From Mycobacterium sp. (GTDB lineage: Bacteria; Actinomycetota; Actinomycetes; Mycobacteriales; Mycobacteriaceae): a DNA stretch of 64,000 bases. The stretch is taken from contig JAGQTV010000102.1 in assembly GCA_020438845.1 (NCBI GenBank), positions 62,001-126,000 of the forward strand. Direction: 5' to 3'. Both the position numbers and the translations under genes were made by a program. A model generated the notes under the pieces. It made no database searches. It worked only from the letters and a program-made list of their open reading frames with translations, and was not told the origin of the DNA. Shown piece by piece: positions 3,720 through 48,516 of this stretch (position 1 is the stretch's first letter; each line of letters begins with the position of its first letter).

Positions 3720-3735
3720 CGTGAGGAGGTTACCG

Positions 3736-4155
3736 TCACGCTCCCGGCCTCCGGAAAATCCACACCCGTTGGACGACGAAATTGATCACCGTCGCGGTTC
3801 CCTGAGCGACGACGAACGCCACTGGGACCGCCAAGCCCCGGTAATCCAGAAGGTGCAAAGTGAAGTGGTTGAGACCGACCTGGACGATGAAGGTCAGGGC
3901 ATAGAGGACCATCACCTTGGCGAACCGCGACCGGCTGGGCGGGGCTCCGAAGGTCCAGCGCCGGTTGATCAGATAGGCGGTGAGTGTGCCGGCGATGAAA
4001 CCGATGGCCTTGGCCAGGTCGACCTGAAGGCCCGCGCCCTTGTAGAGCAGCAGGTAGAGCCCGAAGTCAACGATCGCCGAAAAGCCGCCGGTCAGCACGA
4101 ACCGCAGCACCTGGGTCTTGAGACTCAGGTGCTGAGGTAGCGCGATTTCGGCCAT
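3736..4155 (-). CDS. GtrA-family small membrane protein (Rv3789-like)
   Basis: A 139-residue protein with four predicted membrane segments and the GtrA signature ([21 protein letters not shown] near the start, INRRWTF in the middle). GtrA proteins are linked to moving or anchoring polyprenol-linked sugars. The M. tuberculosis counterpart Rv3789 has been proposed either as a DPA flippase or as an anchor for the galactan enzyme WbbL/GlfT machinery. It precedes dprE1 by 16 nt on the same strand and probably starts the gtrA-dprE1-dprE2-aftA transcript. The exact biochemical role is unsettled in the literature and cannot be decided from sequence. Confidence 0.9.
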
Positions 4156-4184
4156 CGCGGGAAGCTTACGTGCACCATTGAGAG

Positions 4185-4811
4185 GTGGTCGATGATCTGA
4201 TGGAGGCGTGGACGGCTCTGATCGGCCGGCACACCGACTCGCCCGAGGCGGAAGACGTCGGCCGTCGCCTCCTGGCGTCCTGGCGCGAACCTCACCGCCG
4301 CTACCACGCGGTGTGCCACCTGCGGGACATCCTCGCCCGGGTCGAGGAGCTCAGCGCGCTGGCTGAGGATCCCGACGCCGTCCGGTTGGCTGCCTGGTAC
4401 CACGACTCGGTGTATGCGGGACTTCCGGACGACGAAGAGCGCAGCGCCCGCCGCTCCGAACAGGAGCTGTCCGGACTCGGCGTGGCGCCGGCCCTGGTGG
4501 ACGAGGTGGCCCGGCTGGTGCGCCTGACCGTCAACCACGACCCGGCGCCCGGCGACCGCAACGGCGAGGTGCTCTCCGACGCCGACCTCTCGGCGTTGGC
4601 GGTGTCCCCTGAGCATTACCAAAGCAACAGCGCGGCGATTCTCGAGGAGTATCGGCACATCCCCGTTGACGTGCTCCGCAAGGGTCGGCTACAGGTGCTG
4701 GCGGCCCTCCTCGGGAGCCCCGGAGTGTTCCGCACCGAACCCGGGCGACGGCGGTGGGAGACCGCCGCAAGGGACAACATGCTTGCGGAGATGGCCCAGC
4801 TGAGCAAATGA
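4185..4811 (+). CDS. HD-domain metal-dependent phosphohydrolase family protein
   Basis: A 208-residue predicted metal-dependent HD-superfamily protein. The family pattern is visible: [13 protein letters not shown] in the N-terminal third supplies the first His, [11 protein letters not shown] the His-Asp pair, and RLTVNHDPA a later His. Substrate unknown. The start used is GTG 4185; ATG 4200 is an alternative with AGAGG 14 nt upstream. The gene diverges from the GtrA gene, with 29 nt between the two starts, so both promoters must share a very short region. It is inserted relative to the M. tuberculosis order and has no obvious link to cell-wall synthesis. Confidence 0.8.
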
Positions 4812-4873
4812 CTCGGCGGTAAAGGCCTTTAAGCACTTGCGCTGAGGCGGTTTGGCGTAGACGATTCTGGCTC

Positions 4874-5308
4874 ATGGCAGACGAACATGGCCCGATCTCG
4901 GTACTCGACGACAACGAAGCCTGGCGGCTACTGGAAAGTGTTTCGCTGGGGCGGCTGGTGACCAGCTTCGGCGGCCAGCTTGAGATCTTCCCGGTCAACT
5001 TCGTCGTCCAACACGGCACCGTTCTCATCCGTACCGCTGAGGGAACGAAGCTCTTCACGACGGTGATGAACGACCGCGTGCTCTTCGAAGCCGACGACCA
5101 CACAGTCGCCGGAGGCTGGAGTGTGATCGTGCGCGGCACCGCCCGCGTGCTGACCACTTCCGAGGAGATTCGAGAGGCCGACCGGGCCGGGCTGATGCCC
5201 TGGGTACCGACGGTCAAGACGCGTTATGTGCGGGTGACTGCTACGGAGATCAGCGCGCGGAGTTTCCGCTTCGGTCCTGAACCCCAAGACGGTGCTGTTC
5301 CGGGTTAG
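4874..5308 (+). CDS. Pyridoxamine 5'-phosphate oxidase-like (FMN split-barrel) protein
   Basis: A 144-residue protein of the PNPOx-like FMN/F420 split-barrel superfamily. The N-terminal region EAWRLLESVSLGRLVTSFGG followed by IFPVNFVV and LIRTAEGTKL is typical of small actinobacterial members. These proteins bind flavins, F420 or haem; substrate cannot be inferred. It starts 62 nt after the HD gene, so may be co-transcribed. It ends just before a 51-bp tandem repeat and converges on wzm. Confidence 0.82.
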   Translation: MADEHGPISVLDDNEAWRLLESVSLGRLVTSFGGQLEIFPVNFVVQHGTVLIRTAEGTKLFTTVMNDRVLFEADDHTVAGGWSVIVRGTARVLTTSEEIREADRAGLMPWVPTVKTRYVRVTATEISARSFRFGPEPQDGAVPG

Positions 5309-5312
5309 TGCC

Positions 5313-5422
5313 GACTGCCCGACTCCTCAGCGGCTCGCTGCGCTGCGCCGCATCGTCGCCGGGGGGAGTCTGACTGCCCGACTCCTCAGCGGCTCGCTGC
5401 GCTGCGCCGCATCGTCGCCGGG
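5313..5422. repeat. 51-bp intergenic direct repeat, two copies (MIRU-like)
   Basis: The same 51 bases (beginning GACTGCCCGACTCCTCAG and ending GCATCGTCGCCGGG) occur at 5313-5363 and 5372-5422, 8 nt apart. They fill the whole gap between the convergent PNPOx-like gene and wzm; the second copy ends one base before the wzm stop codon. Within each unit the CGGCTCGCTGCGCTGCGCCG part is rich in short self-complementary runs. Intergenic repeats of comparable sequence style are common in mycobacteria, but membership of a named family was not tested. Confidence 0.9.
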
Positions 5423-6253
5423 CTAGACCCAGTAGGGCACGCGGGCCCGGAACTGCCGCAACGCCACGGCCGCCGCGCACCAGCCCAGGACCGTCAGCAC
5501 TATCACGACTACCCAATGCCGGGTTTCCTGATGCGCGCCCAGTAGTGGAGCGCGCAGGATGTCGAGATAGTGCAGCAGTGGGTTGAGTTCGATGATCTTG
5601 GTCCACCGGCCGGCGCCTTGGCGCTCCAGGGTTTCGGCGTTCCAGATGATCGGCGTCATGAAGAACAGCAGTTGCACCAGTGATCCAAGAAGCGGGGCGA
5701 TGTCGCGGTAGCGGGTGGCCAGGATTCCGAAACAGAACGACACCCACACGCAGTTGAGCATGATCAAGGCAATCGCCGGTAACACCGACAGGTCGGCCCA
5801 CGACCACGGCTTGGGGTAGATGATCGCGATCACCACGAAGATCACGATGTTGTGCGCGAACAGAATCATCTGCCGCCACACCAGTCGGTAGACGTGCACG
5901 CTCAGGGGCGTCGGAAGTTGTTTGATCAGACCCTCATTGGCCATGAACACCTCTGCGCCCTCCAGGATGGAGGCGTTGATCATGTTCCAGATGATCAGGC
6001 CCAGGGTCACGTAGGGCAGGTGTTCGGCAATCGGAAGCTTGAACAGCTTGGCGTAAAGCAGGCCCATGGCCACGGCCGTGGTTCCGGTGGCGATGGTGAT
6101 CCAGAACGGGCCGAGCACGGACCGGCGGTACTTCTGCTTGATGTCCTGCCAGCCCAGATGCAGCCACAATTCCCGTTTGTGAAAGCCGTCGATCAGATCG
6201 CCCCAGGCGCGGGCGAAGGTCTTGGACTGACTGGCTGCCTCGATGATTGTCAC
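5423..6253 (-). CDS. wzm: Galactan export ABC transporter, permease Wzm
   Basis: ABC-2 type permease, about 276 residues from GTG 6253, with six membrane segments; WQDIKQKYRRSVLGPFWITI marks the conserved N-terminal amphipathic region of the Wzm/RfbD family. With Wzt it exports the lipid-linked galactan precursor of arabinogalactan to the periplasm. A longer start (ATG 6319, 298 residues) would overlap glfT1 by 62 nt. GTG 6253 lies 4 nt after the glfT1 stop with GCGGAG upstream and gives a length near the M. tuberculosis protein (280), so I prefer it. Operon with glfT1 and wzt; equivalent of Rv3783. Confidence 0.9.
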   Translation of the reverse strand: MTIIEAASQSKTFARAWGDLIDGFHKRELWLHLGWQDIKQKYRRSVLGPFWITIATGTTAVAMGLLYAKLFKLPIAEHLPYVTLGLIIWNMINASILEGAEVFMANEGLIKQLPTPLSVHVYRLVWRQMILFAHNIVIFVVIAIIYPKPWSWADLSVLPAIALIMLNCVWVSFCFGILATRYRDIAPLLGSLVQLLFFMTPIIWNAETLERQGAGRWTKIIELNPLLHYLDILRAPLLGAHQETRHWVVVIVLTVLGWCAAAVALRQFRARVPYWV

Positions 6254-6257
6254 CGGC

Positions 6258-7163
6258 TCACTCCGCACTGCTCCTGAATTGCTCGTGACGACCCAAGCGA
6301 CGTAGCCGTATCCACTCACGCAGCCCGGCCGGATCGCGACGGGTTACCAGGAAAAACCACCCGAAGCGGAGCCATTCCTGCGGCAGCAGTTTGCGAAGCC
6401 CAGGCTGGGACAGCACGTAACCACGGTTGCGATAGGTGTAGAAGCGCTTGACCGGGTCGTCGGGGTATTGGGTGTGCATCCGCCCGCCGAGGATCGGTTT
6501 GAACTCGTCGCTGCCATAGGGGTGGAGGTAAACGGTGTCCAGGCAAGTGCCGAAGGGTAGGCCGCTGCGCACCAGACGGCGATGCAATTCCACTTCGTCG
6601 CCGCGAACGAACAGTCGGATGTCCGGAACCCCAACGGCTGCAATGGCGTCCGCTCGGAAAAGCGCACCGTTGAACAGCGACGCGATTCCGGGCAGTAGAT
6701 CTTGGTCGGGGCCCTGCGTCCGTAATTCGCCGACGTGCCGTCGCCACACCAGTCCCCGCCGCAGCGGGAACGCCAACCGGTCGGGGTGGTCAAGCGCGCA
6801 CACCATCGGAGACACCTCGGCGAGGTTGTGCTTGCGGGCACACGCCAGCAGAGTGGCCAGCACCTCGGCGTCGCGGGGACGGCCGTCATCGTCGGCCAGC
6901 CACACCCAGTCCGCACCCAATGCCAGCGCGTGCAGAATCCCGAGAGCGAAACCGCCTGCACCGCCCAGATTTCGGTGTGACCCGAGGTAGGTGGTGGGGA
7001 CGGTTTGTCCGGTCACCAGGTCTCGTACCCGCTCGTCGTGATCGTTGTCGACGACGATCAGATGATCGATCATGCGACTCTGGGTGGTCACTACGTCCAG
7101 CGATTTGGCCAGTTCATCGGGACGGCGGTGGGTGACGACGACAGCACACACCATGTCACTCAT
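6258..7163 (-). CDS. glfT1: Galactofuranosyltransferase GlfT1
   Basis: GT2-family transferase of about 301 residues that adds the first galactofuranose residues to the decaprenyl-PP-GlcNAc-Rha acceptor, initiating galactan. It opens MSDMVCAVVVTHRRPDELAK, followed by the nucleotide-sugar signature WVWLADDDGRP and the acceptor-region motif FVRGDEVELHRR. ATG 7163 is chosen because it aligns with the family N-terminus and overlaps the wzt stop by 8 nt; a 20-residue upstream extension to 7223 lies inside wzt and is not needed. Equivalent of Rv3782. Confidence 0.93.
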   Translation of the reverse strand: MSDMVCAVVVTHRRPDELAKSLDVVTTQSRMIDHLIVVDNDHDERVRDLVTGQTVPTTYLGSHRNLGGAGGFALGILHALALGADWVWLADDDGRPRDAEVLATLLACARKHNLAEVSPMVCALDHPDRLAFPLRRGLVWRRHVGELRTQGPDQDLLPGIASLFNGALFRADAIAAVGVPDIRLFVRGDEVELHRRLVRSGLPFGTCLDTVYLHPYGSDEFKPILGGRMHTQYPDDPVKRFYTYRNRGYVLSQPGLRKLLPQEWLRFGWFFLVTRRDPAGLREWIRLRRLGRHEQFRSSAE

Positions 7164-7971
7164 CGTCAGGCGACCAATCGGCGGCGTGCTCGATGAGTAC
7201 CTCGCGCACGTGACGCGCGGCATCCTCGCCTTCGTAGGCGCGCACGACCTCTTCGATGCCGCCCCTCAAGCGAATGGTGCCGTGGTCGATCCACATGGCG
7301 GTTTTGCACAGTCGTGCCAGAAACTCGTTGGAATGGCTGGCGAACACCAGGATTCCGGATCGTTCGACCAATGCCTGCAAGCGGTGTTGGGCCTTCTTCA
7401 GGAATTCGGCGTCGACGGCGCCGATGCCCTCGTCGAGCAGCAGGATCTCCGGGTCGATGCTGGTGACCACACCCATGGCCAACCGCACCCGCATGCCGGT
7501 GGAGTAGGTGCGCAGTGGCATGGACAGGTAGTCGCCGAGTTCGGTGAACTCCGCGATCTCGTCGACCTTGGACAGCATCTGCTTTCGGGTCTGTCCCAGG
7601 AACAGTCCGCGGATGATGATGTTCTCGTAGCCGGTTATCTCCGGGTCCATCCCGACGCCGAGATCGAAAACCGGCGCGACGCGCCCCCGTACGACGGTTC
7701 GGCCACGGGTGGGCTCGTAGATGCCGGAGAGCAGTCGCAGCAGAGTCGACTTGCCCGCACCGTTGTGCCCGACGAGGCCGACTCGATCGCCCATCTTCAG
7801 CGTCATGGTGATCTCGCGCAGCGCTTCGATGACGACGACGTTGTCACCGGTGCGTCCGATCGCCCCACCTGCCTTGCCGAGGAACGCCTTCTTCAGGGAG
7901 CGGGTCTTGGCGTCGAAGATGGGGAACTCGACCCAGGCATCACGGGTCTCGATATAGGGATCGACGGTCAC
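7156..7971 (-). CDS. wzt: Galactan export ABC transporter, ATPase Wzt
   Basis: A 271-residue ABC ATPase. Walker A GHNGAGKST is at about residues 83-91, the atypical polysaccharide-exporter signature YSTGMRVRLAMG at about 156-167, and Walker B ILLLDEGIGAVD follows. It energises Wzm for galactan export. GTG 7971 is 15 nt downstream of the bpa stop. The C-terminus is short, without the O-antigen-binding extension seen in some Wzt proteins, which fits a transporter that does not read a chain terminator. Equivalent of Rv3781. Confidence 0.93.
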   Translation of the reverse strand: MTVDPYIETRDAWVEFPIFDAKTRSLKKAFLGKAGGAIGRTGDNVVVIEALREITMTLKMGDRVGLVGHNGAGKSTLLRLLSGIYEPTRGRTVVRGRVAPVFDLGVGMDPEITGYENIIIRGLFLGQTRKQMLSKVDEIAEFTELGDYLSMPLRTYSTGMRVRLAMGVVTSIDPEILLLDEGIGAVDAEFLKKAQHRLQALVERSGILVFASHSNEFLARLCKTAMWIDHGTIRLRGGIEEVVRAYEGEDAARHVREVLIEHAADWSPDDE

Positions 7972-7986
7972 CGCGAACGTGCCGCC

Positions 7987-8508
7987 CTAGAGGTACTGAC
8001 CGGTGCCGTGACCACCCGGGGCGCCGGGTTGGGCCATTCCGGGAGGCAGGGCGCCCTGGCGCATGTGTTCGAGCTGGGCCCGGGCAGCCATCTGCTGTGC
8101 AAACAGTGCAGTCTGAATGCCGTGGAACAAACCCTCCAGCCACCCGACCAGCTGGGCCTGAGCTATCCGCAACTCGGCATCCGACGGGATGGACTCCTCG
8201 GAAAACGGCAGCGCCAGCCGGTGTAGTTCTTCCCGGAGTTCCGGGGCCAGACCGTCTTCGAGTTCTTGGATGCTGGTTGCGTGAATCTCTCGCAGCCGGG
8301 TGCGGCTGGCATCGTCCAGCGGCGCGGCTTTCACCTCGTCGAGCAATTGCTTGATCATGGTGCCGATACGCATCACCTTGGCCGGCTGTTCCACCAGGTC
8401 AGTTACGGAGCGATCGTTGCCGTCCTGGTCCGCCTCGGTGCCTGGACCGGCGATGACCTCGATGTTGTCGCTGAGGTCGTCCCCGACGTCATCGGCGTTG
8501 GTTGTCAT
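7987..8508 (-). CDS. bpa: Bacterial proteasome activator Bpa/PafE
   Basis: A 173-residue protein almost identical in its core to M. tuberculosis Rv3780: TDLVEQPAKVMRIGTMIKQ, then ELEDGLAPELREELHRL and AQAQLVGWLEGLFHGIQTA. It ends in GQYL, the C-terminal motif by which the dodecameric Bpa ring docks on the 20S proteasome and opens its gate without ATP. ATG 8508 has AAGGGA upstream; a TTG at 8529 would extend it by seven residues. It lies between an Rv3779-like gene and wzt on the same strand, a position conserved in M. tuberculosis although the function is unrelated to galactan. Confidence 0.94.
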   Translation of the reverse strand: MTTNADDVGDDLSDNIEVIAGPGTEADQDGNDRSVTDLVEQPAKVMRIGTMIKQLLDEVKAAPLDDASRTRLREIHATSIQELEDGLAPELREELHRLALPFSEESIPSDAELRIAQAQLVGWLEGLFHGIQTALFAQQMAARAQLEHMRQGALPPGMAQPGAPGGHGTGQYL

Positions 8509-8536
8509 GCGCTGAGTATTCCCTTGCAAGTCAGTG

Positions 8537-10525
8537 CTACTGCAATCCAGTGCTACCGGGTCCGCGCCACTCGTAGATGCGGGCGCCCCCGTTGTCGTAG
8601 ATCTTCGCCCACGACGAAGACTTGTCCAATGACACTAGCCCGTCCGGCATCACGAAACCGCGGACCACGGGACTGCTGGTGATCACATAGCGGATGTTCA
8701 ACGCCCGGACTGCGTCTGCCACCCGCGGATCGTGGTCGGCGTCGTCGGCGTACGCCCAGAAGATGAAGCGGTTGTAACCGGGGCCCTGTTGCACCGGGTA
8801 GTCATAGTGGGTCCACAACGGGTGCAGGTCTGCCACCGCGTACATCCAGGCCGTGCCGTCAACGTTGGCGTCGCCGATCACAGTGTCGCGCGCTCCGGGC
8901 AATTGGGCCAGATATGCGAAGGCCTGCAAATCCTTGTCGCCGATTATCACCTGGTCGTACTTTTCGCCTATCAGGTAGCGGTGCCGCGGCAAGTAGTGCC
9001 AAGCGAGACCGACGCACACCAGGACCAGCAGTCCGGCGGTCGCGCCTATCCAGAACCTGGGGCCCCTGTCGATCCCGCGCGCCTCGGCCCGGCCTCGCAC
9101 CCAGTCCACCACCAGTCGGGCGCCGGAGAACAGCGCCAGCCCGGCCATCGGCGCCAGCAGCAACGTCACCACGGCCGACAACCGGCGCGGATCGCTGTAG
9201 AACAGATCGCTGTACTTACCGGTCAGGGCACCGATCGGACCGCCGAATGGCGCCGAGGAGTGCACGATCGAGACAATCAGCAGTAGCCAGACCGCAGCCG
9301 GCCACCAGATGCGCTTGACAAGCAGCATGAGGAAGCCGATGCCGGCTAGTCCGATGATGATGTTCTGGATCGGATAGTCGTTCAAGTGGCGGGTGTGCTG
9401 GACGATCGCGTCGAATAACGCCCGCTTCCTGCCCATGTGCGTGACGAATGTATGTCCGGTGATGATTTCGGCCTGCTGCAGGACCCCGAGGAATTGCGGG
9501 AGCAGTACCGCCAGCGTCGGAGCCCCGATGGCCAGGAGCGTCAGGAAATCTTTGCGCCGTCCTTTGTTCCCGGGACCGGCCACGGGATTCCGCAGCGCGT
9601 CCAACAACCACCATGCAGTCACGAACGTCACCACCACGACACCGCCGGTGATATGAACGGAGAACACCCCAACGGTTGCCAGCACCGCCAACGGGATACG
9701 CCAACGGTGCGCCAGCGACGACGTGACCAGTACGAACGTGGGCACCGCCAAGCCGTAGGCCACCAGGTTGGGCATCGCGGCGGTATCGAACTCGACGTAG
9801 GGCACTGCGGTGAACGACGCCGACAGCGCGGCCGCGGTTGCCGAAGCGCCGGCGGTGCGCCAGAGAGTGGTCCGACCGTTCAGGAGCTGCCAGGTGAGCA
9901 AGCCCGCGCTGAGTGGGAACAGCCAGACCGCGGCCGCCAGCGAGCTCAACGTGTAGGCGGTGGTCGGAGCCGAGCCGGTGAGTTGGGCCAGTACGGCTCC
10001 CAGCGCATGGAAAGCCGACGGGTAGTACAGCGGCGCCTTGGTTTCGACGTTCCGCAACTCACCCATATGAGTCGGGGAAGCCTGGCCGGTGTCGAGGATC
10101 CAACGGATGGTGTTGGCGTGCCAGACCGAGTCCCAGGTACTGGGGATGGATTGCCAATGTGGCATCCCCCGCCAAGCCGCGTAGCCGATGGCGAGGGCTC
10201 CGAGCAGTACCCCGGCGGCCGCCGCCCACTCAGGTCCGCGGTCCTGGGGCGGCCGGTCGGACCTCCCCTCGCGGGGTCCACCCAGCATGATGCGCAAGCC
10301 GAAAGCCAAGCCGGTCATCGCTGCCCACGCCATCAGAGCAGTCAGTGCGTTCCAGCGGACGCCGATAGCACCGAAGGGCACGATCGCGAGGGACACCACC
10401 CCGTAGGTCAGGGCTGGGCCGACGGCCGTGGCGAGTGGCCAGCGCAGGCCTCCGGCGCGCGCGACGACGGCGCCCGGCACGATCATCAGCACGACCGCGG
10501 CAAGCACTCCGGTGCCGAAGTTCAC
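8537..10525 (-). CDS. GT-C-like polytopic membrane protein (Rv3779 family, DUF6541)
   Basis: A 662-residue protein with many membrane helices and a C-terminal periplasmic domain (LAQLPGARDTVIGDANVDG, YNRFIFWAYADDADHDPRV). Length and position match Rv3779, for which a role in adding galactosamine to arabinogalactan from polyprenyl-phospho-GalNAc has been reported. The acceptor-side residues cannot be verified here. ATG 10525 is preceded by an intergenic stretch shared with the divergent class V protein. Annotated often as DUF6541. Confidence 0.85.
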   Translation of the reverse strand: MNFGTGVLAAVVLMIVPGAVVARAGGLRWPLATAVGPALTYGVVSLAIVPFGAIGVRWNALTALMAWAAMTGLAFGLRIMLGGPREGRSDRPPQDRGPEWAAAAGVLLGALAIGYAAWRGMPHWQSIPSTWDSVWHANTIRWILDTGQASPTHMGELRNVETKAPLYYPSAFHALGAVLAQLTGSAPTTAYTLSSLAAAVWLFPLSAGLLTWQLLNGRTTLWRTAGASATAAALSASFTAVPYVEFDTAAMPNLVAYGLAVPTFVLVTSSLAHRWRIPLAVLATVGVFSVHITGGVVVVTFVTAWWLLDALRNPVAGPGNKGRRKDFLTLLAIGAPTLAVLLPQFLGVLQQAEIITGHTFVTHMGRKRALFDAIVQHTRHLNDYPIQNIIIGLAGIGFLMLLVKRIWWPAAVWLLLIVSIVHSSAPFGGPIGALTGKYSDLFYSDPRRLSAVVTLLLAPMAGLALFSGARLVVDWVRGRAEARGIDRGPRFWIGATAGLLVLVCVGLAWHYLPRHRYLIGEKYDQVIIGDKDLQAFAYLAQLPGARDTVIGDANVDGTAWMYAVADLHPLWTHYDYPVQQGPGYNRFIFWAYADDADHDPRVADAVRALNIRYVITSSPVVRGFVMPDGLVSLDKSSSWAKIYDNGGARIYEWRGPGSTGLQ

Positions 10526-20989: not shown

Positions 20990-23900
20990 ATGGCCAGCCG
21001 CCATGGTGGCGATCGCGTCACCGAGGTAGCCGCTGGCGTTGCCCGAGTAGAGCAGCGTCGGCTATTTGGCCTGTACATGTGGCTGATTGCCGGATTGTTC
21101 GCCGCCACAATCGGATTGGCGCTTACGTCTCCCGCGTCCGCGCATGCTGATTCGGGTTCGCAGACGTCGTCGGACCGGGTTGCGAATTCGGTTCGTGGCG
21201 GTTCAGGATCGTCAACGGGCCCCTCCGCCAAGTCGTCGAGCACGACCTCGAGGGCGGCCGCTGCCACAGTCGCCAGCCCTCCGGCTGTCACCACCAAGGC
21301 GGCGAGGCTCGCTGTTCCAGCCTTGACGAATCCCGTGGCGAGCGCGGCGCAGGCGTCGGCCAAGGCGCAGGCTTCAGCGAATCCTTCGCTGGCAGAGTTT
21401 GCCAAAAATCTGTCGATCACCAAGAGCACTTCTCAGGCGACGGTGGCGACGGTGTCGACTCCGCCCACGAAGGCTTCGGCAGCCAAGACGTTCAACCTTG
21501 GCGCCGGCAACGTCGGCAATCTCAACGTCGGCTTAGGCAACCAGGGCGACGGGAACATCGGCAGCGGCAACCTCGGTGACAGGAACTTCGGTTTCGGCAA
21601 CCTCGGTGACAGGAACTTCGGCTTCGGCAACACCGGCAGCGGCAACTTTGGTGCCGGTAACACCGGCTCCGGCAACATCGGTTTCGGCAACACCGGCACC
21701 GGCAACATCGGCATCGGCCTGACCGGCGACCACCAGATCGGCTTCGGTGGCTTCAACTCCGGCACTGGGAACAAGGGGTTGTTCAACTCCGGAAGCGGAA
21801 ACAAGGGCTGGTTCAACTCCGGCAACGGCAATTCGGGCATCGGCAATTCCGGCGACCTCAACACCGGACACTTCAACGTCGGCGACGTCAACACTGGGTC
21901 CGTCAACGTCGGCAGCCTCGACACCGGGTCGTTCAACGTCGGCAACTCCAATGGCGGCAGCTTCAACCCCGGCAACACCAATACCGGCTGGTTCAACCGC
22001 GGCGACCTCAACACCGGCTCGTTCAACTCCGGCAACTCGAACACCGGTTTTTACAACTCCGGTTATCTCAACACTGGCTTATTCAACTCCGGCAACGCGA
22101 ACAACGGCTTCTTCCAGAAAGGCGACAACAAGAACTGGTTCCCGGGCATTCATGTCGCCTACACGGTCCCCGCGATGACTATCGATGAGACCTTGCCGAT
22201 CGATATCAACCAGCAGATCCCACTCGGACCGTTGACGGTGACGGTGGGGCCGACGACGGTCGACGCCCACGTCACCGGAAGCACCGGCCCGATTGAGATC
22301 ACCATCCTCGACATCCCGGCCGGGCCGGGTTTCTTCAACACCGGAACGGTGGCCTCCTCAGGCTTTTTCAACACCGGCGCCGGCGGCGGTTCGGGTTTGC
22401 TGAACATCGGCGTCGGTCTGGTGTCGGGCTTCTTCAACGATGCCCTGCTGGCCGGTGAGGGCCTGTCTGGCTATTCCAGCACCGGGTCGGGTTCCGGTTT
22501 CGCGAACCTGGGTTCGGCCTTGTCGGGCGCCCACAACACCAGTTCCCTCGACCCGTCCGTGCCGGCTTTCGTTTCGGGCTGGGGCAACATCGGGGTGATG
22601 ATGTCGGGAAGGTTCATCAATCAGCTGACCGGAACGCCGACATTCAACCTCGGCGCCGGGAACCTCGGGTTCGGCAATTTCGGCAAGGGCAACCTGGGCA
22701 GTCACAATCTCGGTTGGGGTAATCAGGGCAGCGGCAACCTGGGTTCAGGCAACGTCGGTGACGGAAACCTCGGCTCGGGTAATACCGGAGACAAGAACCT
22801 CGGCGGCGGTAACGCCGGGTCCGGCAATGTCGGCACCGGGAACCTCGGTAGCAAGAACTTCGGCATCGGCAATAACGGCGACGGCAACTTCGGTGCCGGT
22901 AACACCGGCAATGGCAATATCGGCTTCGGCAATACCGGCACGGGCAACATCGGCATAGGTTTGACCGGTGATCATCAATTCGGGTTCGGCGGGTTCAACT
23001 CCGGATCAGGGAACAAGGGGTTGTTCAACTCCGGAAGCGGGAACAAGGGGTTCTTCAACTCCGGGGCCAACAACTGGGGACTCGGTAACTCTGGAAGCCT
23101 GAACACCGGGTTGTTCAACGCCGGTGACGGGAACTCCGGTACGGGCAATGTCGGTGATTTCAACACCGGCAGCCTCAATGCAGGCAGTTCCAACACCGGC
23201 CCCGTGAACGCCGGGGACACCAACAGCGGCTGGGCCAATCTCGGCGACCGCAACACCGGGTGGGCCAATGTCGGCGACGCCAATACCGGATGGGCGAATC
23301 TGGGGGATCTGAACACCGGCGGCGTCAATACCGGTGACGGAAACAACGGGCTGTTCTGGCGGCGCAACGGCGGCGGCCAGCTCCACATCGATCTCGGCGC
23401 CGATCTCTCCCAGGTGCCGATCACCCTCAACGCCGACATCCCGGTCAACATCCCGATCACCGCGGTGCTCACCGATCCGATTTCGATCCCGAGCATCACT
23501 GTGCCCGCTAATCCGATCGCGACAAGCATCACCACACAGGTCGAACTGGCCCCAGGCATTAACGCCGACATAGTCCTGGACGTCACCGGGGCCCTCGGTC
23601 CGATCACCTTCCCGGGCACGGATATCACCGTGCCGCAGCTGGTCGGAACCCTCGGCGGACCGGGGGTGTCGATCCCGGTCACGCTGAACGGAACCATCGG
23701 GCCGGGCCGGATCTCCTTCTTCCGCCTGGATGGGCCGGGATTCTTCAATTCCACCGACGCGCCCTCGTCCGGGTTGTTCAATTCCGGTAGCGGCGGGGGT
23801 TCGGGATTCCTGAACTCCGGCGCCGCAGGCATCTCAGGCCTGAACAATGAGGCGTTGCAGGCCGGGCTATCCGGCCACGGCAACGAGGGTTCGGGATCGG

Positions 23901-25699
23901 GCTTCTCCAACCTGGGTTCGGCGATCTCGGGCAAGCACAACACGAGTTCACTCAACGACCCGGCGCTGCCCGCTTATATCTCGGGCCTTCGCAACGTGGG
24001 AACCAACCTGTCAGGAATCTTCGTCAATGCGTGGGGCGCCAAGAGCGCTGGCCTCGCACACCACGGCAAGCGCGGCTGGCAGCTGGGCATCGACACGAAC
24101 GTCGATATCTCCGAGATTCCGATCAACTTCGACGGCAGCATCGGTCTCAACGTCCCGCTCAGCGCCAGCCTGACGGGCCCCATCACCGTCAGCGGCTTCA
24201 CCATCCCCACTATTCCCGGCGAACTGCAGCAGGGCTCGCAGATGACCATCACTGTCCCGGACCTCTTCGGGCCGGCCGTGATCCCACTGACAACCGACAT
24301 CGGAATCGGCCCAATCACGGTGCCCGACATCAGCCTCGTCTCCGCCGATCCACTGCTGTCTGGCCTGATCGGCGGCCCGGACACCACGATCCCGATCACG
24401 ATCAGCGGTGCAATAGGCCCGAACTCGAACGGCGGATCGGCCCTCATCAGCCTCAACCGCACCGACACCCGTGGCTTCTCGGTGGACCTCAACGCCGACG
24501 TCGCCCAGACCCCGATCACGCTCAACGCCGACATCCCCGTCGACGTCCCCTTCGCCGCTGACTTCGGCGACCTCACCCTGCAGGGCGTCACCATCCCCGG
24601 CTTCGACGTCACCACCAGCAACTGGCAGACGCTGCGCAACGAGCCGGTTCCGTCACTGCTGGGCAGCTTCTACCTCGACTTCAATGCACCGGGCACCGTG
24701 CTGCCAGTCGGTGACATAACTCTGGACCCGGTGACGATCGGACTGCCAACCCTGACCGGCAACATTGGAGGACCTGGTGCAGGGTTGGGGCTTAATCTCG
24801 ATGCCGGAATCGGCCCGTTCACGATCAACGCCCCGGTAGGTGTCAAGCTGCTGCCGAAGCCGTCGATCAACGTCGACCAGGTTCTGGTCAGCCAGATCCC
24901 GCTCTTCGCGAACCTCGGTGCCACGGCGGATGTGCCGGTCAGCCTCAGCGCTACACCGCTCACCGTCTCTGAGATCACCATTCCCCAGATCGCCATCGGC
25001 ACCGCCCCCGTGGGTAACACTCTGCAGGGTTTGATCTTCCAGGGGGCGATCAAGGGCAATCCCACGCCGCCGTCCGCCGGCACTATTATTCGGAACCCGT
25101 GCACTCGGGCTTGCATCGCGTTGCAGCTGTCGCCGGTGATCAACATCGGACCGATCACGGCCGGTCCCATCGAGCTCGGCTTCCCGGGTGACCAGGCGTT
25201 GTCACTGACCATCGGCGGCCCGGACAAGGGCGTCGAGGCATCCGTGGCCGGAGCGCTGGGTCCGATCAACGTCTCGCTGGCGAACAAGGAGGTCGAGGCG
25301 TTCCCGTATTCCTACCTCGGCAATGTCGCCGTTGACGTCCCCATCGACGGCAGCACTGGCTCGCTCGACCTGCAGCAGTTCGACCTGTCGCTGCCTGTTC
25401 TGGCTCTGCTTTACCAGCGGGTGGGTTACTGCGCCGCAGGCGGGCTTACATGCACCAATCTGGACTTCAATCAGTTCCTCACCTACGTCAATGGAGGCAG
25501 CCCGCAAGGCTCCGCGCCGGGTCCATTCCCGCCGAGCACTTCGGTCGCGGGCTCCACCCTGATCGACGAGAACCTGGGTCAGCCCGTCGGACCCATGACT
25601 CTCATCCCAAGCATGGCAATCAGCCAGGACATCAAAAACGACACCCCATTAAGTGGCAGCGGCACATTGGGGCCGTTCGCGTTGGGTTCTGTGGCGTAG
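20990..25699 (+). CDS. Secreted PPE-MPTR-like pentapeptide-repeat protein without PPE domain
   Basis: 1569 residues. Instead of a PE or PPE domain it has a membrane/signal segment ([18 protein letters not shown], then PASAHADS) and an Ala/Ser/Thr linker to about residue 168. Two blocks of N-x-G-x-G-N-x-G-type pentapeptides follow (about 170-380 and 550-785), each containing a nearly identical stretch with [12 protein letters not shown] and GFGGFNSG. Each block is followed by beta-rich Ile/Pro/Thr segments and by GSGSGFxNLGSAxSGxHNTSS modules. From about 1020 to the end the segments recur in variant form with no pentapeptides. These are the building units of PPE-MPTR tails. ATG 20990 is used; GTG 21020 or ATG 21077 are possible starts. 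Confidence 0.8.
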
Positions 25700-43227: not shown

Positions 43228-43256
43228 CGGCGAATTCTAGGTAGTAGGCGGGGGCT

Positions 43257-43262
43257 CATACT
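43257..43262 (+). promoter_or_regulatory. Possible -10 element, leaderless response regulator mRNA
   Basis: CATACT (near TANNNT/TATACT) ends 6 nt before ATG 43269, the spacing for transcription beginning at the start codon. No ribosome site is seen. Inference from spacing only. Confidence 0.35.
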
Positions 43263-43268
43263 GGGTGC

Positions 43269-44003
43269 ATGACCTCACCGGCGGGCGAACGAGTGGTCAT
43301 GCGGCGCGCGGACGGGGGCCCGATCAGGGTCCTCGTCGTCGATGACGAGGCCGTGCTGGCCGAAATGGTGTCGATGGCATTGCGTTACGAGGGGTGGACC
43401 ACCGTCACCGCCGGTGACGGTGCCGAGGCCTTGGCGGCGGCGCGGGAGAACCGCCCGGATGCCGTGGTGCTCGATGTGATGCTTCCCGACATGAGCGGTT
43501 TGGAGGTGCTGCGCATGCTCCGTGAGCAGATCCCGAACCTGCCCGTGTTGTTGCTGACCGCCAAGGACGGGGTCGAGGACCGTATCGCGGGTCTGACTGC
43601 CGGCGGTGATGACTACGTGACCAAGCCCTTCTCGCTCGAGGAGGTGGTGTTGCGGCTTCGCGGTCTGCTGCGCCGCACTGGCGCAAGTATCGACGAGAAC
43701 AACGCCAAGATCGTGGTCGGTGATCTCGTTCTCGACGAGGACAGCCACGAGGTGAGCAGGGCCGGCGAATCCGTTTCGTTGACGTCCACCGAGTTCGAGT
43801 TGCTGCGCTTTCTGATGCGTAATCCCAAGCGGGTGCTGTCCAAGACGCAGATCCTCGACCACGTCTGGAGTTACGACTTCGGCGGTAAATCCAACATCGT
43901 CGAGCTTTACATCTCCTACTTGCGGAAAAAGATCGACAACGGGCGTGAGCCGATGATCCACACGTTGCGCGGGGCCGGATATGTCCTCAAACCCGCGATC
44001 TAG
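43269..44003 (+). CDS. tcrX: OmpR-type response regulator (TcrX-like)
   Basis: A 244-residue regulator. Receiver domain: acidic pair in VLVVDDE, phospho-acceptor Asp in DAVVLDVMLPDMSG, Lys in DYVTKPFS. Winged helix: TSTEFELLRFLMRN, YDFGGKSNIVELYISYLRKK, and MIHTLRGAGYVLKPAI. Very close to M. tuberculosis TcrX in the C-terminal half. The target genes are unknown, but the envelope glycan module starts two genes downstream. Overlaps the kinase gene by 23 nt. Confidence 0.85.
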   Translation: MTSPAGERVVMRRADGGPIRVLVVDDEAVLAEMVSMALRYEGWTTVTAGDGAEALAAARENRPDAVVLDVMLPDMSGLEVLRMLREQIPNLPVLLLTAKDGVEDRIAGLTAGGDDYVTKPFSLEEVVLRLRGLLRRTGASIDENNAKIVVGDLVLDEDSHEVSRAGESVSLTSTEFELLRFLMRNPKRVLSKTQILDHVWSYDFGGKSNIVELYISYLRKKIDNGREPMIHTLRGAGYVLKPAI

Positions 44004-45471
44004 AGCCTGGTCACTGCGGGCACGCCTACTGGCCGGCCAGATCCTGTTGCTGGCAGCCGTGTGTATCGGTGTCGCCGGTGCCACTGAACTCGCCCTGCGG
44101 CACTACTTGATCGGTCAGCTCGACCACCAGTTGCGCGACACCGCACACCGCTCGGCGCTGATCTATGGCCCTCCGATGCCGCCCCCTCGTCCGCTACCCA
44201 TTCCCCCGTCTCGCCCTCCCCCGTCGCGGCTCGGGCCGGGACCCGGGTTTCTCGACGCTCCCGGACAGCCGGTCGGAGTGGTGGCCGGCGTGGTGCGCGA
44301 CGGCGTGACGGTCAGTTCCGGTGTGCTGGCCGGCGGGGGTGTCCGGGAGCAGGTTTCACCGGTCGCGATGAGTCAGTTGGCCGAATTCGCTGGCGAGCGT
44401 AAGCCGGTTACTCGCACGTTCGATGGACTCGGTCGTTATCGCGTGGTCGGCGCCAACACCCGGCGACCGGGCGAGAAACTGGTCGTCGGACTCAGCCTGA
44501 GCCATGTTGAACAGACACTGGTGCGGGTGGCGCTGATTTTCGCGGTGGTGACGGCAGCTGCCCTGGCGGTTGCGACAACCGCCGGTGTTCTCATCATCAG
44601 ACGAGCCCTGGCCCCGTTGACCCGGGTAGCCGCAGCAGCGGGCGAGGTGGCGAATCTTCCCCTTGATCGTGGTGAGGTGGCCTTGCCGGTCCGAGTTCCC
44701 GATTCGGACGCGAACCCGCGCACCGAAGTCGGGCGCTTGGGCTTGGCGCTGAACCGGATGCTCGACCACATCGCGGCAGCGTTGTCGGCGCGGCAGGCCA
44801 GCGAGAGCCGGGTGCGTCAGTTTGTCGCCGATGCCAGCCATGAACTGCGTACGCCGCTGGCCGCCATCCGCGGCTACACCGAACTGGCGCAACGAAAGAG
44901 AGCCGAGTTGCCGGACGACGTGGCACATGCCATCGCCAGGGTGGAGTCCGAAGCCGACCGAATGACGCGGCTGGTCGAAGACCTGCTGCTGCTGGCCCGA
45001 CTGGACGCCGGGCGACCGCTGGAACGCGAATCGGTCGACCTGTCGAGGTTGTGCGCCGATGCCGTCAGCGACGCTCACGCGGCCGGCCCGGACCATCAGT
45101 GGTACCTCGATGTTCCCGCCGACCCGCTGGATGTTCCAGGTGATGCCGCCCGGCTGCATCAGGTGGTCGCCAACCTCCTGGCCAACGCTCGGATACACAC
45201 CCCGACCGGCACAGCTGTGACGCTGTCGCTGGAGGCGCGAACCGACTGCGCCGTCCTGAAAGTTTCCGATAACGGACCCGGCATCCCGGCCGATCTTCAG
45301 GCTTTTGAGCGGTTCGCACGCGGCGATACCTCTCGTTCCCGTAAGGCTGGATCTACCGGACTGGGTTTGGCCATCGCGTCGGCGGTGGTTCGCGCGCACG
45401 GCGGCGTCATCGAAGTGCGCAGTGTGCCCGGAGAGACGGAGTTCACCGTGCGACTACCGCGCTTCTCATAG
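43981..45471 (+). CDS. tcrY: Sensor histidine kinase (TcrY-like)
   Basis: A 496-residue kinase. Two N-terminal membrane segments (about 12-35 and 175-200) flank a proline-rich extracellular loop (PPMPPPRPLPIPPSRPPP) whose role is unknown. HAMP follows, then DHp with the phospho-acceptor in DASHELRTPLAAIRGYTEL, and the ATPase domain with VANLLANARIHTP, DNGPGIP and GSTGLGLAI. ATG 43981 lies within the end of tcrX. The paired organisation matches M. tuberculosis Rv3765c-Rv3764c. Confidence 0.86.
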   Translation: MSSNPRSRAWSLRARLLAGQILLLAAVCIGVAGATELALRHYLIGQLDHQLRDTAHRSALIYGPPMPPPRPLPIPPSRPPPSRLGPGPGFLDAPGQPVGVVAGVVRDGVTVSSGVLAGGGVREQVSPVAMSQLAEFAGERKPVTRTFDGLGRYRVVGANTRRPGEKLVVGLSLSHVEQTLVRVALIFAVVTAAALAVATTAGVLIIRRALAPLTRVAAAAGEVANLPLDRGEVALPVRVPDSDANPRTEVGRLGLALNRMLDHIAAALSARQASESRVRQFVADASHELRTPLAAIRGYTELAQRKRAELPDDVAHAIARVESEADRMTRLVEDLLLLARLDAGRPLERESVDLSRLCADAVSDAHAAGPDHQWYLDVPADPLDVPGDAARLHQVVANLLANARIHTPTGTAVTLSLEARTDCAVLKVSDNGPGIPADLQAFERFARGDTSRSRKAGSTGLGLAIASAVVRAHGGVIEVRSVPGETEFTVRLPRFS

Positions 45472-45526
45472 CGGGGGCACAGCCAGGGCCAATTCCTTAC
45501 CCACGCTTGGTCCCGATGCTCGAAAC

Positions 45527-46711
45527 GTGACCACTGCCGAGCGTGATGTTCCGATTCTCGACGTCGTGGTGCCGGTGCACAACGAGCAGACCGTGCTGGC
45601 CCATTCGATTCACCGGCTCCACGAGCATCTCAGCCAGACCTTCCCGCTGTCGTTCCGTATCACCATCGCCGACAACGCCAGCGTCGATGGCACCGCTGCG
45701 GTGGCAGCCGGCCTTGCTGCAGAACTGCCTGGAGTGCGCGTGGTGCGTCTTGCGGAAAAGGGTCGAGGCCGCGCCCTGCGTACAGTCTGGTCGTCGTCGG
45801 ACGCCCCTGTGCTTGCATACATGGACGTCGACCTGTCCACCGACTTGGGGGCGCTGTCCACACTGGTTGCGCCGGTGGCGTCCGGGCATTCTGAACTGGC
45901 AATCGGCACCCGGCTCGGGCGGGGCTCGCGGGTGGTGCGCGGCGCCAAGCGGGAGATCATTTCGCGGTGCTACAACCTCATCCTCCGGGCGGCGTTGGCC
46001 GTCCGGTTCAGTGATGCCCAGTGCGGTTTCAAAGCTATCCGCGCTGACGTTGCGCAACGACTGCTCCCCCATGTCGAGGACACCGGCTGGTTCTTCGACA
46101 CTGAACTGCTGGTGCTCGCACAGCGAAGCGGATTGCGGATTCACGAGGTGCCGGTCGACTGGGTTGACGATGAGAACAGTCGAGTCGACCTCGTCGCCAC
46201 CGCCGTCGCCGACCTGAAGGGAGTGGTGCGACTACTGAAAGGCTTTGCAACAGGCGATATTCCGATGCAGGCTATCCGCGCTCAGTTTGGAGACCGCGCT
46301 GGGGCGCCGCGCTCACTGCTTCATCAGAGTGTGCGCTTCGCCGCGGTGGGCGTCATGTCGACAGTGGCCTACCTTCTGATCTTCCTGTTACTTCGCCCCT
46401 TCGGAGCCCAGAGTGCCAATCTCGTAGCTCTCCTGTTAACGGCAATCGCCAATACCGCTGCCAACCGGTGGTTCACGTTCGGAGTGCGCGGGCGAAATGC
46501 TCTGGTGCGCCATCAATTCGAGGGATTGACCGTATTTGGGATCGGTCTGGCGCTAACCGGTGGAGCGCTGGCGCTGCTCCACTACGTCGTAGAGCCGTCA
46601 AGGGCTTTCGAACTTCTGGTGTTGATGCTGGCCAATCTGATCGCCACCGTCGTGCGGTTCGCGTTGCTGCGGGGCTGGGTATTCCACCCGCGTCGAGTAG
46701 GAGCGAATTGA
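45527..46711 (+). CDS. GT2 glycosyltransferase fused to a GtrA-type membrane domain
   Basis: A 394-residue fusion. Residues 1-250 are a dolichol-phosphate-sugar synthase-type GT2: DVVVPVHNEQTV, nucleotide-sugar Asp motif YMDVDLSTDL, GTRLGRGSRVVRGAKRE, and DAQCGFKAIRADVA. From about 265 a GtrA domain with four helices follows (RFAAVGVMSTVAYLLIFLLL, ANTAANRWFTFGVRGRNAL). Such fusions charge a polyprenyl phosphate with a sugar and help move it across the membrane. GTG 45527 is chosen because it begins the first family-like residues. Its stop overlaps the GT-C start by 1 nt (TGATG). Confidence 0.9.
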   Translation: MTTAERDVPILDVVVPVHNEQTVLAHSIHRLHEHLSQTFPLSFRITIADNASVDGTAAVAAGLAAELPGVRVVRLAEKGRGRALRTVWSSSDAPVLAYMDVDLSTDLGALSTLVAPVASGHSELAIGTRLGRGSRVVRGAKREIISRCYNLILRAALAVRFSDAQCGFKAIRADVAQRLLPHVEDTGWFFDTELLVLAQRSGLRIHEVPVDWVDDENSRVDLVATAVADLKGVVRLLKGFATGDIPMQAIRAQFGDRAGAPRSLLHQSVRFAAVGVMSTVAYLLIFLLLRPFGAQSANLVALLLTAIANTAANRWFTFGVRGRNALVRHQFEGLTVFGIGLALTGGALALLHYVVEPSRAFELLVLMLANLIATVVRFALLRGWVFHPRRVGAN

Positions 46712-48516
46712 TGAACGTCAAAGCGCGCCTTTCGCTGTGGTCGCTGATCGGCCTCACCGCTCTGCTCTATCTGTGGGGGCTGGGTTCTGCGGGCTGGGCT
46801 AATGAGTACTACGCGGCAGCGGCGCAGGCCGGAACCCAGAGTTGGAAGGCGCTGCTGTTCGGTTCGCTGGACGCAGGGAATTCGATCACCGTCGACAAGC
46901 CGCCGGCGTCGCTCTGGGTGATGGGCTTGTCCGGACGTCTGTTCGGCTTCGGCCACTGGTCGATGCTTGTGCCGCAGGCGCTCATGGGAGTCGCGGCCGT
47001 AGTGCTGGTTTACGGGGCGGTGCGGCGGGTCAGCGGCCACGGTGCCGGGCTGTTGGCGGGTGCGGTGCTGGCGTTAACCCCGGTTGCGACGTTGATGTTC
47101 CGCTACAACAACCCTGACGCACTCCTTGTCCTGTTGCTGGTGGTCGCTGCGTACTGCGTGATCCGCGCTCTGGAGAGCGCCCCGCTCCGCTGGACTGTGC
47201 TGGCAGGGGCGGCGCTCGGGTTCGCTTTCCTGAGCAAGCTCCTGCAGGCATTGCTGGTGAGCCCTGCGATCGCTGCGGTGGTTCTCGTTGCGCTGCCCGG
47301 TGGCATGTGGGCGCGGATCCGAACTCTCTGTGCCGGCCTCGCTGCCATGGTCATCAGCGCGGGGTGGTACGTCGCATTGGTCTCGTTGTGGCCCAGCAAC
47401 TTTCGGCCCCACATCGGCGGATCTACCGACAACAGCCTCATTGAGCTGACGCTGGGTTACAACGGCCTGGGTCGCGTCTTCGGCGGCAACGGCAATCCGA
47501 TCGGCCTTTCACCGGGCGCGCCCGGTGATTCCACGCCGCCGATGTTCGGTGGTCAGACTGGGCTCACCCGGTTGTTCGGTTCCGAGATGGGTACGGAAAT
47601 AAGCTGGTTGCTACCCGCAGCACTGATCGGTTTGGCCGCAGCGATGTGGCAGACCCGTCGGGCGCCGCGCACCGACCGCTTACGTGGCGCGCTCCTGCTG
47701 TGGGGTGGCTGGCTGCTGGTGACTGCACTGGTGTTCAGCTTCATGAAGGGGATCATGCACCCCTACTACACGGTGGCACTGGCCCCAGCAGTCGCGGCGC
47801 TGGTCGGAACCGGAGTCATCGAACTCTGGCGCCGGCGGCAATCCGCATCTGCGCGGTGGACGCTGGCCGTCATGCTGGCAGTTACCGGCGTGTGGACCTT
47901 CGTGCTGCTGTGGCGCACCCCGGACTGGTTGCCGGGATTGCGCTGGGTGCTGCTGGTAATGGCCCTTGCTCTGGCCGCAGTAGTGGGCTTGTCCGCCCAG
48001 CGATCTGGTCGGTGGACTGCGATGCTGGCTGCGACGGGGTTGCTGGTCGGCCTCGGCGGGGCGGCCGCCTACACGGTGGACACGGTGTTCGCCGGGGGCA
48101 GTGGACCGATCCCGGTCTCCGGCCCCCACCGCTTTCAGCCGGTTGGCCAGGGCCCGGTCGATGGGCCACGCGCCGCCGATGACACCGCTCTGATCGACCT
48201 CATTGAACGTACCGACAACCGTTGGGCCGCAGCCACCGTGGGATCTCACACCGCAGCCGGTCTGGAATTGGCTACCGGGGCGTCGGTGATGTCGATAGGT
48301 GGCTTCAACGGCGGCGACCCGTCACCGACCCTGCAACAGTTCCAGTCCTACGTCGCCCAGAGGCAGATTCGATACTTCGTCGCCAGCCCAGAGGATCACC
48401 GGGGGCCTGGCCCCGAGTCGGCCGTGGGCACCGAGATCACCCGCTGGGTCAAGCAGGTCTTCATTCCCCGGGAAGTCGGCGGCACGGAGGTCTATGACCT
48501 GACGGTCAGTTGCTGA
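46711..48516 (+). CDS. PMT/ArnT-like GT-C glycosyltransferase
   Basis: A 601-residue membrane enzyme of the GT39/GT83 type. The first periplasmic loop has the donor/acceptor region NEYYAAAAQAGTQSWKALLF and ITVDKPPASLWVMGLSGRLF; the DKPP motif is typical of ArnT/YkcB-like proteins. About 11 helices and a C-terminal periplasmic domain (AATVGSHTAAGLELATG, YFVASPEDHRGPGPES) follow. It should transfer a polyprenyl-phosphate-linked sugar to an outer-face acceptor. AGGAG lies 8 nt before ATG 46711. Coupled to the GT2-GtrA gene, forming a complete three-step module. Confidence 0.9.
   Translation: MNVKARLSLWSLIGLTALLYLWGLGSAGWANEYYAAAAQAGTQSWKALLFGSLDAGNSITVDKPPASLWVMGLSGRLFGFGHWSMLVPQALMGVAAVVLVYGAVRRVSGHGAGLLAGAVLALTPVATLMFRYNNPDALLVLLLVVAAYCVIRALESAPLRWTVLAGAALGFAFLSKLLQALLVSPAIAAVVLVALPGGMWARIRTLCAGLAAMVISAGWYVALVSLWPSNFRPHIGGSTDNSLIELTLGYNGLGRVFGGNGNPIGLSPGAPGDSTPPMFGGQTGLTRLFGSEMGTEISWLLPAALIGLAAAMWQTRRAPRTDRLRGALLLWGGWLLVTALVFSFMKGIMHPYYTVALAPAVAALVGTGVIELWRRRQSASARWTLAVMLAVTGVWTFVLLWRTPDWLPGLRWVLLVMALALAAVVGLSAQRSGRWTAMLAATGLLVGLGGAAAYTVDTVFAGGSGPIPVSGPHRFQPVGQGPVDGPRAADDTALIDLIERTDNRWAAATVGSHTAAGLELATGASVMSIGGFNGGDPSPTLQQFQSYVAQRQIRYFVASPEDHRGPGPESAVGTEITRWVKQVFIPREVGGTEVYDLTVSC

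Follow-up and report, generated by a model that had tools for sequence, protein, structure and literature searches.

A conserved direct repeat points to TcrXY control of an adjoining putative transmembrane glycosylation module in a mycobacterium

What does a sensor-regulator pair related to TcrXY control when it stands directly in front of genes for lipid-linked sugar transfer? The question is raised by a stretch of 64,000 nucleotides from Mycobacterium sp. (GenBank assembly GCA_020438845.1, contig JAGQTV010000102.1, positions 62,001 to 126,000), hereafter the window. Between 43269 and 48516 the open reading frame (ORF) list and Pfam place on one strand a tcrXY-type two-component pair, a fusion of a family 2 glycosyltransferase (GT2) with GtrA, and a PMT_2/YkcB-type GT-C glycosyltransferase (Table 1), bearing out the original prediction of this gene order with the last two genes coupled by 1 nt. 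On comparative sequence evidence, we consider it probable that this is a TcrXY-controlled transmembrane glycosylation module, and that the TcrX regulon joins lipid-linked glycosylation with small proteins resembling TarA and TarB of M. tuberculosis.

Table 1. Coordinates of the features of the tcrXY-glycosyltransferase locus in the window
Feature	Position	Strand	Basis or remark
tcrX-type OmpR/PhoB-family response regulator	43269..44003	+	Pfam Response_reg and Trans_reg_C; orthologues in genus; closest solved structures M. tuberculosis PhoP
tcrY-type membrane histidine kinase	43981..45471	+	Pfam HAMP, HisKA, HATPase_c
Putative TcrX operator CATAG-N6-CACAG-N6-CCAAT, 11-bp step	45466..45493	+	Exact pattern match 45466-45492; overlaps tcrY stop codon
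-10-like hexamer GATGCT	45515..45520	+	48 nt after box 1, 6 nt before GTG; putative promoter element
GT2-GtrA fusion, probable polyprenyl-phosphate sugar synthase with GtrA membrane domain	45527 (GTG)..46711	+	Pfam Glycos_transf_2 and GtrA_DPMS_TM; DPMS 5mlz profile match
GT-C glycosyltransferase	46711 (ATG)..48516	+	Pfam PMT_2 and YkcB_C; ArnT 5ezm profile match
Gap between divergent DUF1622 gene and tcrX	43228..43268 (41 bp)		Without the operator carried before tcrX in relatives

The tcrX and tcrY reading frames overlap by 23 nt, a gap of 55 nt separates the tcrY stop from the GT2-GtrA start, and the GT2-GtrA stop and GT-C start have one base in common (TGATG). Mechanically called ORFs begin further 5′ (45305 for GT2-GtrA and 46468 for GT-C), and the later starts proposed for both genes agree with the domain extents. 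Read by eye, the TcrY translation has a proline-rich stretch between its N-terminal hydrophobic segment and HAMP. The GT2 half gave a profile match to DPMS (5mlz, E=1.1e-13), with ArnC-type structures matched too, and the GT-C matched ArnT (5ezm, E=4.2e-11) over profile positions 57-218, the first membrane part, with its DKPP aligned to the EKPP of ArnT, suggesting relation to ArnT rather than membership. GT2, GtrA and GT-C are thereby found together, as in multi-component transmembrane glycosylation systems, and the charging, flipping and transfer logic proposed earlier for them holds at family level on Pfam and profile matches. The window's genome (4.5 Mb, Mycobacterium in the broad GTDB sense) has one YkcB_C match and three GtrA matches.

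TcrX orthologues (E≤1e-85) were found in 139 of 148 genomes of the genus, with a best match of about 79-85% identity in most of them. Neighbours are shared with the M. tuberculosis gene order as well (alkyl sulfatase, proVWX-type genes and tyrA, with LpqH in relatives). Identity and neighbourhood together support orthology of the window pair to TcrXY, which gives substance to the earlier label "TcrXY-like". The divergent DUF1622 gene lies 41 bp from tcrX here and several hundred bp away in relatives that have it.

GT-C homologues occur in 74 of the 148 genomes. Placement covered 71 of these (G092, G139 and G147 left out), and the top TcrX orthologue stands 1.9-5.0 kb upstream of GT-C, in the same orientation, in 67 of the 71; of the four exceptions, two come from fragmented assemblies and two from genomes in which no TcrX match reached E≤1e-85. 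Spacing was below 4.2 kb in 18 of the 67 linked genomes. TcrX placement covered 136 of the 139 genomes (the weak matches in G003, G089 and G126 left out), and 67 of them have no placed GT-C, G139 among these having a weak match. TcrX was within the flank examined in 72 of the 80 named GT-C loci, which are the best 80 of 267. The commonest layout is tcrX-tcrY-GT-C1-GT2GtrA-GT-C2, with an additional GT-C between tcrY and GT2-GtrA; the window has the shorter layout, and its genome is without GT-C1. In one metagenome-assembled genome (L005), a short GT-C1-like N-terminal remnant, read by eye, seems to be left in the tcrY-GT2-GtrA gap. The complete unit recurs in Gordonia araii, Tamaricihabitans and Herbihabitans, and an Amycolatopsis locus is without a GT2-GtrA match; flanking genes vary while the tcrXY-glycosyltransferase unit persists. 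No constant 3′ partner of GT-C was found in the eight loci where one was sought, the neighbours being carbonic anhydrase in three and otherwise NUDIX, phosphoesterase, LpqH, MerR or helicase genes. The three anhydrases are of Pro_CA type and on the same strand as GT-C (L023:9927-10418, L032:9909-10439, L042:9881-10384), which is of interest beside an acid sensor. Second TcrX-like regulators (66-71% identity) near further GT-C copies at G041:C208 and G035:C33 suggest paralogous sensor-glycosyltransferase modules.

The evidence for control comes from a repeat. The sequences upstream of tcrX in relatives read CACAG, CAYAG and CAYAG at 11-bp steps, and the two-box core is CAYAG-N6-CAYAG. The three-box form has 60 matches before tcrX and one elsewhere, in the tcrY-glycosyltransferase gap of L038, in 1.45 Mb of loci plus the window. 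The core was derived from tcrX promoters, and its tests at the glycosyltransferase genes concern separate DNA. It is present before tcrX in 70 of 72 loci (missing in the window and L025), in the tcrY-glycosyltransferase gap in 56 of 71 (missing in L006-L017, L019, L020 and L025) and before GT2-GtrA in 70 of 71 (L025 the sole miss), compared with means of 0.06, 0.03 and 0.11, respectively, and a maximum of 1 in 200 shuffles; the loci are related by descent, and these counts are not independent draws. Boxes also precede GT2-GtrA in L018 and L075, though no TcrXY is in the flank examined. Within the 64-kb window the core matches once, at 45466, and a position weight matrix built from tcrX promoters with the window left out ranks 45465 top with a score of 21.0, the next independent site scoring -7.3. 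A transcript starting from the GATGCT hexamer would be a leaderless or near-leaderless mRNA. A loose -10-like hexamer, defined post hoc after the sequences had been viewed, stands at +47/48 from box 1 in 66/69 tcrX, 41/69 GT2-GtrA and 18/47 GT-C1 promoters (shuffle maxima 4, 3 and 4); strict TANNNT is not enriched at that position.

A scan of 30 genomes (15 with GT-C, 15 without) for a longer pattern, TCAYAGNNNNNNCAYAGNNNNNNCNHA, gave 52 matches versus 3 for the reversed control. They comprise 23 at tcrX (two overlapping in G012), 15 at the glycosyltransferase module, found in 14 of the 15 genomes that carry it, nine at small proline-rich proteins, assigned by hand, and five others; in the window's genome the pattern matches once, at 45466. 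Each of the nine small proteins has a single hydrophobic segment and a tail rich in Pro and Gly, and often in His; the first in-frame start lies 36-63 bp downstream of the site's first base. Published binding sites of M. tuberculosis TcrX include the promoters of Rv3706c (TarA) and Rv3705A (TarB), at which the authors report no motif (PMC10883919). The TarA C-terminal peptide given in PMC7287972 matches L093-L097 better than all 300 shuffles, with 18 identities over 26 residues in L095 and L097 ahead by one point only; L099 is likewise ahead by one point, L101 ties, and L098 and L100 are not ahead. With the shorter TarB peptide from the same source, only L098 beats the shuffles, by one point. 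We therefore take L093-L097 as TarA-type and assign L098-L101 to neither type, so that at least five of the nine small proteins resemble TarA/Rv3706c. Two weak homologues of the small proteins are present in the window's genome. The TarB-like one, on contig C64, has an operator at 13/14 positions whose start lies 62 bp before the ATG; the other, on C21, is without an operator-like site (best 10/14). The original prediction had left TcrXY control of the module as an "if"; the conserved operator at tcrX, at the glycosyltransferase promoters and among the genome-wide matches gives it strong comparative support, with TcrX as the presumed binder.

Loci that keep TcrXY without the module (GT-less) were compared with those that carry it (GT+). 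Boxes within 250 bp after tcrY occur in none of the 18 GT-less loci having that much sequence (L107 and L108, whose sequence ends 15 and 101 bp after tcrY, left out). lpqH lies between GT-C and the alkyl sulfatase gene in three GT+ loci (L040, L057 and L068), and an lpqH homologue follows within about 160 bp of tcrY in 10 of the 18. An apparent GT2-GtrA after tcrY in L111 (G002) proved to be a 25-residue remnant only. This remnant and the lpqH order favour loss over gain, and the data suggest that the module probably disappeared on more than one occasion with TcrXY retained. In a TcrX+TcrY tree (73 GT+ and 20 GT-less, the 93 rows passing the score and no-stop filter), made by a quick method and having some long branches, the module label requires five changes, at least four of them on starred branches. 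The outgroup rows were located via GT-C and are GT+ by sampling, so the tree gives no direction of change, and the outgroups were dropped as proof of an ancestral module.

For the mechanism, we infer TcrX binding, activation, acid as the signal in this species, and the transfer of a sugar to an acceptor, as follows. TcrY, which responds to acidic pH in M. tuberculosis (PMC10883919), would sense an outside cue and phosphorylate TcrX. TcrX would bind the 11-bp-step direct repeat upstream of the -10-like hexamer and activate its target promoters, predicted in the window's genome to be the GT2-GtrA/GT-C operon and, elsewhere, the gene of the TarB-like small proline-rich membrane protein. The GT2 domain would then load a sugar onto polyprenyl phosphate, the GtrA domain would assist the charged lipid across the membrane, and GT-C would pass the sugar to an outer-face acceptor. 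Envelope-glycan decoration, as first proposed, is one option for that last step; a protein acceptor is another.

GT-C might thus modify secreted or membrane proteins, for example tails of TarA/TarB type, and not lipoarabinomannan, arabinogalactan or another envelope polymer. PMT_2 is a protein-mannosyltransferase-like family, one operator class precedes both the glycosyltransferase and the TarA/TarB-type genes, and the C-terminal peptides of Rv3706c and Rv3705A carry 2-4 and 2-3 hexoses, respectively (PMC7287972). However, the same source credits hexosylation in M. tuberculosis culture filtrate to the general mannosyltransferase Rv1002c, and TarA/TarB-type genes are also present in genomes without the module, so we regard a protein acceptor as unlikely. 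An extension of this idea, to which we likewise give little credence, is that the ancestral core of the TcrXY regulon was a glycosylation circuit, in which TcrX, under acid stress, would induce a membrane-anchored Pro/Ser/Thr-rich TarA/TarB-type protein together with the lipid-linked sugar machinery glycosylating its outside tail; other lineages would have lost the machinery, leaving the tails to the general protein mannosyltransferase.

Ownership of the boxes is a separate matter, since PhoP, alone or with TcrX, might read them, so that acid-responsive PhoPR controls tcrXY, the glycosyltransferase module and the small proline-rich proteins. The closest solved structures to TcrX are those of M. 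tuberculosis PhoP, whose site is a direct repeat of the 7-bp unit TCACAGC spaced by 4 bp, and which contacts bases through six residues (PMC4832192). By alignment TcrX keeps four of the six (N212, E215, Y217 and Y220), with V213 replaced by I and S216 by L, and a PhoP-like repeat is therefore expected for it; binding of the boxes by both regulators is possible. One of the five other genome-wide matches (L105, at G014:C17:270302) precedes a gene for a PhoP-like regulator. Yet the strict PhoP repeat TCACAGCNNNNTCACAGC (TCACAGC-N4-TCACAGC), which covers the strict form only, has 8 matches in 7 of the 30 genomes and none at tcrX or glycosyltransferase sites. TarA and TarB are published as TcrX-bound and TcrXY-dependent, with an overlap of the PhoP and TcrX regulons of about 2% (PMC10883919), and GT-C orthologues travel with tcrXY in 67 of 71 genomes. 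We accordingly think PhoP an improbable owner.

It is still less probable that the locus is a plain operon in which the glycosyltransferase genes are merely read through from tcrXY and the repeat before them is unused. The 55-nt gap and common strand would suit this, as would L006-L017, L019 and L020, in which about 9-24 nt separate tcrY from GT-C1 and the gap contains no box; these same loci, however, carry a box before GT2-GtrA. Cores stand at up to three promoters per locus, and most tcrX and GT2-GtrA promoters have the -10-like hexamer at a fixed distance, which also speaks against mere read-through. Chance neighbourhood in a generally conserved region is largely refuted, since, although most loci belong to one genus, where inertia is expected, the flanks differ while the unit stays and recurs in other genera, and the gap operator is absent in the 18 GT-less loci with enough sequence after tcrY.

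TcrXY control of the module with a shared operator is the reading we prefer, and several observations weigh against it. TcrXY is kept without the module in many genomes, and PhoP reads nearly the same repeat. The core alone is modest in the window, where one match compares with a shuffle mean of 0.21 and at least one match in 16 of 100 shuffles. The exact core is at none of the three promoter places in L025, and the glycosyltransferase genes of L067, L076, L078 and L079 have no box. Sites before the small proteins fit the tcrX matrix poorly (median 1.8), and only one of the nine has the hexamer at +47/48 (shuffle maximum 2). GT-less tcrX upstreams carry the exact core in 11 of 20, near-misses (one-base variants or a shifted box) in 5 of 20 and no recognisable box in 4 of 20 (L108, L114, L115 and L125). 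The window's own tcrX promoter is without the operator, the autoregulatory site, unlike those of its relatives; autoregulation is therefore probably gone in this genome, and its TcrXY level may not rise with the signal even if glycosyltransferase expression does. For M. tuberculosis TcrX, a required 7-bp mirror repeat whose second arm overlaps the -10 has been published (PMC10883919). In favour of the preferred reading, box 3 and the -10 region form a perfect mirror GTCATAG...GATACTG in 4 of 20 GT-less promoters, which matches the published repeat in kind; against it, a mirror with a CATA-containing arm occurs in none of the 73 GT+ promoters. Other 7-bp mirror repeats lie in 9 of the 20 GT-less upstreams, so that a mirror repeat alone means little, and the mirror pattern, which is self-reversing and hence without a control, was found in 20 of 396 genomes, in one (G043) away from tcrX. 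With the M. tuberculosis site compared by published description only, we take the direct repeat to be what is conserved.

The analysis proposes a concrete operator for TcrX, whose published direct targets yielded no motif, and a target absent from the tuberculosis work, namely a lipid-linked glycosylation module that adjoins the sensor in roughly half of the species sampled from the genus. Among the open-licence titles and abstract openings listed, none describes this module beside TcrXY or an 11-bp TcrX repeat. If the proposal is right, acid sensing is linked to mycobacterial surface glycosylation, and the module is a candidate for conditional expression, which may explain why its product has gone unseen.

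Elsewhere in the window, 1542-10525 holds the arabinogalactan genes DprE2, DprE1, a stand-alone GtrA, GlfT1 and a DUF6541 membrane protein, and 20990-25699 encodes a protein of 1569 aa in which 14 stretches match pentapeptide repeats.

Among known systems, the PpgS/Rv3779 galactosamine pathway of the same genus also pairs a polyprenyl-phosphate sugar synthase with a GT-C. The NCBIfam equivalog model of PpgS (polyprenyl-phospho-GalNAc synthase) reaches 38.7 bits here, below its cut-off of 370, and a galactosamine pathway of PpgS type was discarded as an explanation. At 8537-10525 lies a membrane protein that we take to be of Rv3779 type; it is a separate DUF6541 protein. PmrAB-ArnT of Gram-negatives likewise places an ArnT-like GT-C under a two-component system, but among solved structures the window regulator is nearest to PhoP and not to PmrA, and no lipid A is expected. 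Teichoic acids are not expected as an acceptor in mycobacteria. CsbB/YfhO/GtcA, GtlA/GtlB/GtcA and YkcBC (the last of unknown function), as described in PMC8035078, are built from a GT2 charging enzyme, a GtrA protein and a GT-C transferase, as the window module appears to be; unlike in CsbB/YfhO/GtcA-type systems, GT2 and GtrA are fused here and two-component control is predicted. A further parallel is M. tuberculosis TcrXY itself, orthologous by the evidence above and with TarA/TarB-type genes as targets (PMC10883919). It differs in its published 7-bp mirror, as against an 11-bp-step direct repeat that the window's tcrX is without, and the window pair has, in addition, an adjoining sugar module.

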